From the NCBI GenBank assembly GCA_026386845.1, contig JAPLMW010000034.1, positions 1-32,797 on the forward strand: a stretch of DNA of 32,797 nucleotides, read 5' to 3'. The notes beneath the pieces are model-generated. The model was not told where the DNA came from and ran no database searches. It saw nothing but the letters and a program-made list of their open reading frames with translations. The DNA comes from Phycisphaerae bacterium (GTDB lineage: Bacteria; Planctomycetota; Phycisphaerae; Sedimentisphaerales; UBA12454). This document shows, one piece after another, positions 19,201-32,797 of this stretch (within the stretch, counting starts at the first letter, position 1; every line of letters begins with the position of its first letter). The translations under genes and the position numbers were made by a program.

Positions 19201-19260
19201 AGGTTTAGCCCCCACCCCTCCTGACCTGAGCGAAGTCGAAGGTGCGGTGGGGGGTTCAGA
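19201..19260. repeat. TTAGCCC...GGGTT palindrome with nested TCGAC-GCTCA repeat
   Basis: CCCCCACC (19209-19216) pairs with GGTGGGGG (19246-19253) between a TTTAGCCC left end and a GGGGTTC right end. Its loop holds ACCTGAGCGAAGTCGAAGGT, the reverse form of a second dispersed repeat that appears at 32771-32794. One repeat thus sits in the loop of another. It lies 60 bases after the DUF1638-HyuA stop. Confidence 0.8.
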
Positions 19261-20460: not shown

Positions 20461-20538
20461 GTTAGCCCTGCCATTACGGAGTTTACCCCGTGAGATGTCC
20501 GCCCGCAGGCGAGACTTATCTCATCGGGGGCAGGGTTA
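20461..20538. repeat. Triple-nested palindrome: TTAGCCC...GGGTT outer stem with CCCCG-GAGAT element inside (copy 1)
   Basis: The outer stem is CCCTGCC (20466-20472) with GGCAGGG (20529-20535). Inside, CCCCG-T-GAGAT and ATCTC-AT-CGGGG bracket 20486-20529, and within that an inner GTCCGCC / GGCGAGAC stem closes on CCGCA. The 44 bases at 20486-20529 recur without change at 27298-27341 inside the HNH gene. Confidence 0.85.
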
Positions 20539-20539
20539 T

Positions 20540-20568
20540 TTAGCCCCCGGTTTTACCGGGGGTTATTC
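20540..20568. repeat. TTTAGCCCCCGG...GGGGGTTATTCG hairpin, possible prfB terminator
   Basis: CCCCCGGT (20544-20551) and ACCGGGGG (20555-20562) form an 8-bp stem with a 3-base loop, followed by TTATTCG. It has the same TTAGCCC / GGGTT ends as the other members of its family. With its GC stem it could end prfB transcription, but no clear T-run follows directly. Confidence 0.7.
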
Positions 20569-24218: not shown

Positions 24219-24230
24219 AGAAATAAAGAG

Positions 24231-24309
24231 GCAAAGAAGTAAAGAGGTAAGGAAAAACTGTCGCGATAAATTCCTTACATCCTTAATTCCTTATTTCCTT
24301 GCTTCTTTG
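24231..24309. repeat. Simple-word imperfect inverted repeat between folE and the pterin synthase gene
   Basis: The left arm (24231-24254) reads CAAAGAAGTAAAGAGGTAAG and ends GGAA. The right arm (24271-24309) is built of the complementary words TTCCTTAC, TTCCTT and GCTTCTTTG. The centre holds CTGTCGCGATA. The same GGAAGTAAGGAA words occur at 27395-27485 and 31274-31310. Confidence 0.7.
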
Positions 24310-24319
24310 AAAAGGAAAT

Positions 24320-25075
24320 ATGCACATACTTTCAAGACAAATACGATTTACTGTAAATCCATTTGCAGATTCAACTGAAGACGGGGCAAATTCATATTGC
24401 GCAAAACCAACCGCAGAAGGACTATCCCTGTTTTTCGCGCTCTGGGTCGAACTTAAAGGCTCTGCAAATAAAGATACCGGCTTCGTCATCAATGTCTCCG
24501 ATATCGATAAAATTATCAGAGAAAAAGGGATTAAAATTTTCGATGAATTCGTAAAAGATTATTTAGCGGCCGCCGCTCGAGGCGGCCTAAACCCCCGCCC
24601 CAAGTGGCGGGGGCTAAATGGCGGTTTTGAACAAATCGGACAATTATTAAGCAAAGTCTGGAAAACAATCGAAAAAGATTTTCTGCCTGCGAAAATAGAT
24701 AGTCTCACTGTTGAAATTATGCCGGCAAGAAAAATCGGCATAAAAGAAAATGGAGGCGATATGCTTTACTTTAGCGAAAAATTCGAATTTTCAGCAAGCC
24801 ATACGTTGTGGAACGATAAATTTTCCGACAGCGAAAATGAAAAAGTCTTAAACGCAGGCGATTTTGAGCGGATAGTTCAGCAGGACTTTATCAGTGTTGT
24901 TGACCATAAAAACTTAAACGCCGATGTTGAGTATTTTAAAAAGATTAATCCCACAGTGGAGAATATCGCGGAATTTGCCTTCAAGAGCCTTGCGGACAAA
25001 TTAAAACCTCTCGAATTGGATTGCGTAACAGTCTGGGAAAATGACAGAACGTTCTGCTCTTTCAGAGCAGAATGA
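24320..25075 (+). CDS. Two-domain 6-pyruvoyltetrahydropterin / 6-carboxytetrahydropterin synthase-like protein, degenerate
   Basis: A 251-residue protein made of two T-fold halves. The first (about 5-140) keeps the fold pattern (GLSLFFALWVELKGSANKDTGFVINVSDIDKII) but has NPF and GLSL where active enzymes have the zinc histidines. The second (about 147-251) keeps FSASH, the catalytic DHKNLN and WENDRTF, but jumps from NEKV to LNAGDFERIV, missing about 30 residues that normally hold the catalytic Cys and the HGH zinc pair. A palindromic repeat is translated at residues 82-101. AAGGA lies five bases before the ATG. It follows folE, fitting queuosine or pterin synthesis, but activity is doubtful. 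Confidence 0.78.
   Translation: MHILSRQIRFTVNPFADSTEDGANSYCAKPTAEGLSLFFALWVELKGSANKDTGFVINVSDIDKIIREKGIKIFDEFVKDYLAAAARGGLNPRPKWRGLNGGFEQIGQLLSKVWKTIEKDFLPAKIDSLTVEIMPARKIGIKENGGDMLYFSEKFEFSASHTLWNDKFSDSENEKVLNAGDFERIVQQDFISVVDHKNLNADVEYFKKINPTVENIAEFAFKSLADKLKPLELDCVTVWENDRTFCSFRAE
24561..24619. repeat. Nested palindromic repeat inside the pterin synthase reading frame
   Basis: ATTTAGC (24561-24567) and GCTAAAT (24613-24619) are inverted ends. Inside lie two hairpins: GGCCGCC-GCTCGA-GGCGGCC (24568-24587), and CCCCCGCC with GGCGGGGG (24592-24613). The second is a TTAGCCC family member in reverse orientation. The segment is translated in frame as AAAARGGLNPRPKWRGLN between two helices of the first T-fold half and the linker. 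Confidence 0.85.
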
Positions 25076-27193: not shown

Positions 27194-27243
27194 GTTAGCC
27201 CTGCCAATATTTATCCGCCTCAGGTGGACCTTGGCAGGGTTCG
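27194..27243. repeat. TTAGCCC...GGGTTCGT palindrome after the ankyrin gene
   Basis: CCCTGCCAA (27199-27207) pairs with TTGGCAGGG (27231-27239). The loop contains a smaller dyad, TCCGCC-TCA-GGTGGA. It starts GGTTAGCCC and ends GGGTTCGTC, matching the family at 20461 and, reversed, at 32731. It could also end ankyrin transcription. Confidence 0.8.
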
Positions 27244-27262: not shown

Positions 27263-28087
27263 TCAATTACCCTTATTTTCTTCGTGGTTTCTGCCTGCCC
27301 CGTGAGATGTCCGCCCGCAGGCGAGACTTATCTCATCGGGGTGGTGAGAATTTTTCCGGCAGAATCGCAATATTTGCTTATTAAGCTTTGGTTTCTTCCT
27401 TGTTTCCTGCTTCCTTACATCTCTACTTCTTTCTTTCACGTTCCTTACTTCCTGATTCCTTACCTCTTTGCTTCTTTCTTTGAACTTCCCCAAATCCTCC
27501 TTCATCAATATACTTCTCAGCGGTTCAAACTGCCATTGTGGAAAATTTAGCGGCGCATACTCCTCTTCCCCTGCTTGCAGCACAAATTTATCATGTGCTA
27601 ACGCCGCAAGAGTTCTGTTAAATGGCGTATCCGGGCAGTTAAAACGTAATCTTTTCGTTTTATTTGCTCTGAAATTCGCACGAAGGTAGAAATTACCGTC
27701 ATTAAGGTGAGCAGTTACGCCAATCAGGCCCGTATTATTTTTAATCTTCCGGTTAAGCATATTTTGTCTGCTGTTTACTATTCGTAAATTACATCGGCGA
27801 TTATCTAATGGATTTCTGTTTATATGGTCAACTATTTCGCCCCTGCCGGCATGCATAATATATCTTGATAGCAGAATCGTTTTATTTTTCCCGTTTTTTA
27901 AAACCATTCGTGGACAGCCATTGGCCAGATAAAAACTTTTTATAAACGTATATTTGCGTTTCGGTTTTATGTCGGGGTCTTTGAATATTCTGCGGTAAAT
28001 AAAATCGTCAATGATTATTGTCCGTCCGCAAAGTTCGAATGTGCGATAGTTTTCAATTCTTTGCTCCGGCATTTTACTTACATTCAT
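27263..28087 (-). CDS. HNH homing-type endonuclease with AP2-like domain and repeat-derived tail
   Basis: 274 residues. The HNH core runs over LSRYIMHAGRGEIVDHINRNPLDNRRCNLRIV (about 73-104), with the DH and the downstream N and R of the family. An AP2-like DNA-binding segment follows (NNTGLIGVTAHLNDGNFYLRANFR, about 117-140). Relatives usually stop soon after a NFP segment, here at 181-183. Residues about 201-274 are instead translated from dispersed repeats: GGAAGTAAGG words give KERSKEVRNQEVRNVKERS, and a CCCCG-GAGAT palindrome gives DEISLACGRTSHG. AAAGGA lies eight bases before the ATG. It is likely selfish; no intron or intein host gene is near. Confidence 0.85.
   Translation of the reverse strand: MNVSKMPEQRIENYRTFELCGRTIIIDDFIYRRIFKDPDIKPKRKYTFIKSFYLANGCPRMVLKNGKNKTILLSRYIMHAGRGEIVDHINRNPLDNRRCNLRIVNSRQNMLNRKIKNNTGLIGVTAHLNDGNFYLRANFRANKTKRLRFNCPDTPFNRTLAALAHDKFVLQAGEEEYAPLNFPQWQFEPLRSILMKEDLGKFKERSKEVRNQEVRNVKERSRDVRKQETRKKPKLNKQILRFCRKNSHHPDEISLACGRTSHGAGRNHEENKGN
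27298..27341. repeat. CCCCG-GAGAT palindrome, copy 3, inside the HNH reading frame
   Basis: This is the same 44 bases as 20486-20529, with the same right-hand context (GGGGTGGTGA) as copy 2 at 21721. It is translated on the minus strand as about HNH residues 250-264. Confidence 0.9.
27395..27485. repeat. GGAAGTAAGG-type simple-word repeat inside the HNH reading frame
   Basis: On the minus strand it consists of variations of GGAAGTAAGGAA and AAAGAAAGAAG. The same words fill the spacers at 24231-24309 and 31274-31310. It is translated as a highly charged tail. Confidence 0.75.
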
Positions 28088-31211: not shown

Positions 31212-31381
31212 GAAAGTTTACAGTTTACAGCGAACAGTGGACAGAAACGTCTTGTTATCGGTTATCAGAAACAATAGTGGCGAGGCGAGGAAGTAAGGAA
31301 GCAGGGAAGTAAGGAAAATAACGTCGCCGCGCCGGCGACGGCTAAACAAAGAAATTATAGGCAATTTATTTGGAGTAAATT
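31212..31381. other. 170-base repeat spacer before the dehydrogenase gene
   Basis: In order: a GTTTACAGTTTACAGCGAAC half-palindrome (from 31214), GGAAGTAAGGAAGCAGGGAA words (31274-31310), and a perfect CGTCGCCG-CGC-CGGCGACG hairpin (31322-31340). The last 40 bases, ending TTTGGAGTAAATT, carry the GGAG ribosome-binding site of the dehydrogenase. Confidence 0.7.
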
Positions 31382-32706: not shown

Positions 32707-32797
32707 TTGTCCGCCTTGGCGGACAATAACGAACCCCGCCAAAGTGTTGGCGGGGCTAACCACGTCGCCGTGTCCTTCGACTTCGCTCAGGACAGGC
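32707..32797. repeat. Three consecutive palindromes at the right edge
   Basis: TTGTCCGCC-TT-GGCGGACAA (32707-32726); CCCCGCCAA-AGTG-TTGGCGGGG (32734-32755), a reversed TTAGCCC family member ending GGGGCTAACC; and TGTCCT...AGGACA (32771-32794) around TCGAC-TTC-GCTCA. The first hairpin, 14 bases after the stop, could act in termination but has no T-run. Confidence 0.8.

Follow-up and report, generated by a model that had tools for sequence, protein, structure and literature searches.

How does a stretch of DNA that folds back on itself twice come to be read as part of a protein? The question is raised by a 32,797-nucleotide contig of an uncultured planctomycete, a Phycisphaerae bacterium (the whole of which we call the window), where a 59-nucleotide palindromic element (24561-24619, plus strand) lies inside an open reading frame. 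The best-known cases of selfish palindromes within protein-coding genes come from Rickettsia, whose genomes are reduced, and an earlier note on this DNA, made from the letters alone, proposed a comparable insertion process. We consider it very probable that the element is a REPIN, an inverted pair of REP sequences that is mobile but non-autonomous, most likely spread in trans by an HUH/Y1 transposase of the RAYT type.

The element and its host gene

The element reads, in full order, ATTTAGC-GGCCGCC-GCTCGA-GGCGGCC-TAAA-CCCCCGCC-CCAAGT-GGCGGGGG-CTAAAT, and re-reading the sequence confirmed the ends, the two perfect hairpins and the coordinates given in the earlier note. The left tag, ATTTAGC (24561-24567), begins the first REP half and is followed by a hairpin, GGCCGCC-GCTCGA-GGCGGCC (24568-24587), with perfect 7-bp arms (24568-24574 and 24581-24587); these arms and the TTTAGC of the tag are invariant among the 13 aligned genomic copies. 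The second hairpin, CCCCCGCC-CCAAGT-GGCGGGGG (24592-24613), recognized from the alignment of copies and the DNA fold, has perfect 8-bp arms (24592-24599 and 24606-24613) and represents the inverted second REP half, which closes with the inverted left tag, GCTAAAT (24613-24619). All of these features are on the plus strand. As a single strand the 59-mer is predicted to fold into a three-way junction, in which the two tags pair as an outer stem and the hairpins form the other two (-20.8 kcal/mol; z -3.3, with none of 200 shuffles equally stable). Two REP palindromes in inverted orientation, TTTAGC-hairpin and hairpin-GCTAAAT, thus make up one unit, as in a REPIN.

The host gene (24320-25075, plus strand) encodes 251 residues and is identified as a tandem T-fold, 6-pyruvoyl-tetrahydropterin synthase (PTPS)-like protein by a PF01242 match covering its second half (8e-21), a 31-sequence alignment and an AlphaFold model. 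A GTP cyclohydrolase I gene adjoins it, and no second PTPS-like gene was found in the genome. The frame does run intact across the element, as had been claimed, and residues 81-100 are encoded by it (YLAAAARGGLNPRPKWRGLN). The insert is missing at this site from all 29 homologs of relatives, which leave a gap of 13-17 residues in a loop of variable length, and also from 42 named planctomycete metagenome-assembled genomes, nearly all of them Phycisphaerae/Sedimentisphaerales. A gap had been anticipated near residues 82-101; the homologs, rather than encoding the same residues in different DNA, lack the segment, and this absence supports its interpretation as an insertion. The AlphaFold model (31 sequences; mean pLDDT 85.8) places the insert where helix 59-86 ends and in the loop leading to helix 104-121, a loop of low confidence (about 53 over residues 91-100). 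At 59 nucleotides the window copy departs from lengths of 57 and 60, and hence a small loss or gain of target sequence must have accompanied its insertion.

Upstream of the gene, at 24228-24305, runs an octamer-like intergenic repeat, GAAGTAAG / TTCCTTAC, which occurs on both strands, recurs at 27396-27485 and 31282-31318, and is also found around several copies of the element elsewhere in the genome.

A repeat family with an associated transposase gene

The earlier note had suggested searching the genome with the 59-mer, and further copies are indeed present. Own-genome BLAST returned 19 matches, and a covariance model built from 13 copies picked out 13 separate strong loci together with one diverged copy in scpB; the 2.4-Mb genome thus carries 14 copies of 54-60 nucleotides, a low number for a REP family. 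Besides the window copy, 12 are near full length (E 1e-17 to 1e-12), and the diverged copy scores 4e-9. For the census the whole genome was searched, together with 413 kb sampled from large contigs.

Six of the 14 are found within unrelated genes, with the frame kept, namely those for the PTPS/T-fold protein, Lnt, PabB, a BHMT-MTHFR fusion, Mfd and ScpB, mostly in linkers or loops. Seven of the other eight are intergenic or flank the transposase gene described below, and one (C86:8581) is ambiguous and was left uncounted; copies just upstream of likely starts (C65:2574, and those on C22 before ORFs resembling an aminotransferase and an rRNA methyltransferase) were left out of the intragenic count. 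Copies stand in both orientations relative to their host genes, and inspection of their flanks by eye revealed no target duplication. At the ambiguous C86 site an HNH/AP2 gene continues into an ABC ATPase gene as one uninterrupted ORF, possibly because the two genes fused or a stop codon was lost.

The inserts in PabB and the BHMT-MTHFR fusion have Pfam domains on both sides (the peptide across the latter is HLAPATSGGVRPP). In Lnt the insert falls just after LNT_N, at the junction of two contigs that share an exact 141-bp overlap; in Mfd, whose ORF with the insert spans 1177 aa, it precedes UvrB_inter; and in ScpB, a gene named by reading of its sequence, it is near the N-terminus. These hosts retain their Pfam domains, which are full-length in PabB and almost complete in the others, with no loss like that described below for PTPS. 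In either orientation a 57-mer can be read through in just one frame, and an open frame of this kind is the one used by the intragenic copies. Lengths divisible by three are found in five of six intragenic as against four of seven intergenic copies, in a sample too small for significance.

Homolog alignments at the insert sites covered all hosts except ScpB. With the insert subtracted, the host linkers look shorter than those of relatives, so that insertion may not have been a simple one that left the target unchanged; between genera, linker lengths are too divergent for an exact comparison with empty sites. For Lnt the site was covered by a single aligned homolog, whose linker is similarly long, and hence only the identity of the repeat argues for insertion in that gene.

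Among five Y1_Tnp matches in the genome, the candidate partner of the element is a gene at C78:58275-58829, which encodes a small HUH/Y1 transposase of 185 aa. Copies of the element, each of 60 nucleotides, abut both ends of the gene (C78:58217-58276 and 58827-58886), whose TAG stop codon comes from the downstream copy. Both copies point the same way; since each is a complete REPIN, each flank contains REPs of both orientations. The Y1_Tnp match is above the Pfam cut-off, and among NCBIfam models the REP-associated tyrosine transposase scores best (E 7e-16), at 58.4 bits against an equivalog cut-off of 80. The HUH motif is DHIH and the Y motif YINSNP, a combination that fits no listed TnpA-Y1 subclass exactly, and comparison with the TnpA-REP structure 4er8 gave an E of only 0.08.

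Orthologs occur in seven relatives at 51-59% identity, and all seven are flanked by TTTAGC-tagged hairpins with lineage-specific stems, a common tag with differing stems being the pattern expected of RAYT-REP coevolution. Close relatives of the gene were found in only 8 of 294 sampled planctomycete genomes, this one included, and the plasmids searched contained no RAYT relative. Further RAYT-like genes of the same genome, on C70 and C95, have different TTAGC-tagged repeats on their flanks. All copies, and the relatives too, carry TTAG in place of GT(A/G)G. In 413 kb, 48 of 445 [GTA]TTAGC sites begin a GC-rich hairpin, as against 0-9 for each of six permuted tags.

A common tag does not imply a common family. 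The earlier note had assigned intergenic hairpins at 19201, 20461, 20540, 27194 and 32731 of the window to the family of the second hairpin; this grouping did not hold, as only the [GT]TTAGC tag is common to them and their differing stems place them in other REP families. At least one of the five, TTTAGC followed by CCCCCGG-TTTTA-CCGGGGG (20539-20562, plus strand), matches the repeat that flanks the RAYT on C95. Another TTTAGC-tagged hairpin (19204-19253, plus strand) bears CCTGACCTGAGCGAAGTCGAAGG as an insert in its loop, and two GTTAGC-tagged hairpins, at 27194-27239 (plus strand) and 32734-32760 (minus strand; CCCCGCCAA/TTGGCGGGG), again have stems of their own. Repeats of other families are also found in frame in genes, which by reading of the sequences encode an RdgB-like protein, a TPR membrane protein and a LysE-type transporter.

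Further palindromic repeats were observed alongside these. Of two identical 44-nucleotide palindromes, CCCCGTGAGATGTCC...ATCTCATCGGGG, one (20486-20529) sits inside the loop of a REP and the other (27298-27341) towards the 3' end of a minus-strand gene for an HNH endonuclease (27263-28087), in which it is read in frame as PDEISLACGRTSHG. The RdgB-like gene contains a REP pair (C22:23607-23666) and, further on, a palindrome encoding CPEPVEG, both in frame.

Mechanism, known systems and alternative explanations

In the mechanism that we propose, two REP half-sites, each a 5'-TTTAGC tag with a stem-loop, would together act as a small non-autonomous mobile element, mobilized in trans by a RAYT-type transposase acting on single strands, for which the C78 gene is the best candidate. 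In this reading the enzyme would catalyse transposition in a strand-specific manner, with insertion as a single strand and without target duplication. As most lengths are divisible by three and each orientation has one open frame, about one third of intragenic insertions would be expected to add some 19 codons without truncating the protein. Purifying selection would then leave mainly those copies that are in an open frame and in loops or linkers. In the PTPS-like protein, the presumably translated insert would lengthen the N-terminal T-fold domain by 20 residues at a point between two of its helices.

REPINs and RAYTs are well-documented systems (PMC3116915, PMC2817692), and the planctomycete element resembles them (PMC3116915, PMC2817692, PMC3733652) in its inverted REP halves forming a hairpin or clover, its dispersed copies, the position of copies directly beside a Y1 transposase gene and the TAG stop contributed by a REP end. 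It differs from them in its TTAG tag, as opposed to GT(A/G)G, in two arms with unlike stems, in having 14 copies rather than more than 100, six of them inside genes, and in a transposase that falls below the NCBIfam cut-off and matches no listed subclass motif set exactly. Because GTAG is only 'most often' the REP tag (PMC8266576), we regard the system as a variant rather than a plain member. Intragenic, in-frame GTAG and CGTC REP dimers, contributing 20-30 residues to diverse proteins, were described in 2013 from species that include the verrucomicrobium Opitutus terrae (PMC3733652). The present element likewise lies in frame within diverse proteins, but has another tag and belongs to another lineage, and to that description it adds relatives without the insert, a site common to two genera and loops hit repeatedly by different repeats. 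With the IS200/IS605 family it has in common an HUH/Y1 single-strand transposase recognizing subterminal hairpins, and the C78 protein is a weak profile match to IS200 transposases; unlike those, the gene has no adjoining tnpB, is present in a single copy and carries YINxNP instead of YxxxQ.

The Rickettsia palindromic elements (RPEs) are palindromic repeats found in frame in unrelated protein-coding genes and kept where tolerated; they measure about 150 bp, and the RPE literature compared names no transposase (PMC10969869). The RPE-like process suggested in the earlier note therefore stands as far as in-frame insertion into unrelated genes is concerned (six here), while we do not place the element among the RPE families: by the size and tag compared it differs from them, being about 57 nucleotides long, and it has an associated RAYT, and the copies on both sides of a Y1 transposase gene led us to file it as a REPIN/RAYT variant. 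That it might yet be a true relative of the RPEs, or else a MITE, bounded by ATTTAGC terminal inverted repeats and mobilized by a DDE transposase, with the C78 gene having gained its copies by chance, appears unlikely. Such repeats are present, the size is MITE-like and RPEs behave alike in coding genes (PMC10969869), but element copies abut both ends of the Y1 gene, seven orthologous genes have hairpins with the same tag and other stems, and the flanks of the copies gave the eye no target duplication.

A different objection concerns the host, which could be a decaying pseudogene whose open frame is coincidental and whose insertion says nothing of tolerance. The FGKCANxxGHGHNY block (about residue 176), with the catalytic Cys and the zinc-binding HxH, is gone from the window protein and kept by all 30 aligned relatives, and as the sole PTPS-like gene found has lost it, the encoded enzyme is, to judge from the alignment, probably inactive and under relaxed constraint. 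Yet the block was lost in frame, the rest of the ORF is intact with its DHKNLN and E motifs conserved, and five other hosts carry the element in frame with their Pfam domains present, so that decay cannot explain the pattern of the family; as an account of the insertion we hold it to be rather unlikely. It is very improbable that the palindrome is kept as an intragenic regulatory RNA or attenuator: the fold is stable, but a search of the window matched no Rfam family, no T-run follows 24561-24619 on its 3' side, and copies occur in unrelated genes in both orientations. A native loop of the protein family, palindromic by chance, would accord with the variable length of this loop among homologs and is refuted by near-identical DNA at 13 other places (E down to 1e-17).

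The same loops and linkers in sister genomes

Related genomes carry other palindromes at the same sites. In sister genome G001 the PTPS loop holds a different palindrome, TGTCATTCCCGCGAAAGCGGGAATCC, a pattern found at 13 sites in that genome; its PabB linker contains a 57-nucleotide repeat beginning GTAGGGGC, with 17 further matches in G001, and PabB has a second insert, CHSRESGNP, beside the conserved ITTCPIKGTRPR. A CTAAA-tagged palindrome occupies the Mfd linker of G001, and the PabB linker of G002 contains yet another repeat-like insert. The two inserts of G001 pabB (C6:117317-117382 and 117620-117644) are different multi-copy palindromic repeats, both in frame and one of them within the chorismate-binding domain.

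The orthologous pabB site of G004, which belongs to another genus, carries a 57-nucleotide element (C32:40950-41006) whose first hairpin is that of the family and whose second stem is different yet perfectly paired. That the differing stem still pairs throughout suggests that base pairing has been kept, or regained, within a coding region. The element is the only strong covariance-model match in G004, where its second stem occurs once. An element common to both genera is most simply explained by one ancestral insertion, with independent insertion of a related element as the alternative. We offer tentatively, as a possible but doubtful extension, that the pabB REPIN predates the split of the two genera and has kept its 57-nucleotide length and its pairing while the second stem changed. 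A selfish palindrome would then have become a stable part of a protein, intragenic REPINs would be long-lived, and certain linkers would be repeated landing sites for unrelated palindromes.

Intragenic in-frame REP dimers, REPINs, RAYTs and the Rickettsia RPEs are already known. What is new is the TTAG tag, this clade of RAYTs and its lineage, the high intragenic share (6/14), the presence of a pabB element at the orthologous position in another genus, and unrelated palindromes having hit the corresponding loops and linkers in sister genera. In-frame copies in the PTPS-like gene and several others imply that bacterial proteins outside Rickettsia also gain short segments of selfish DNA. The case offers a candidate transposase beside the element, six hosts in one genome, sister genera without the inserts and, in this lineage, loops hit independently by different repeats. 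It would make the origin of new protein segments from mobile DNA a question testable by comparison and simple biochemistry.
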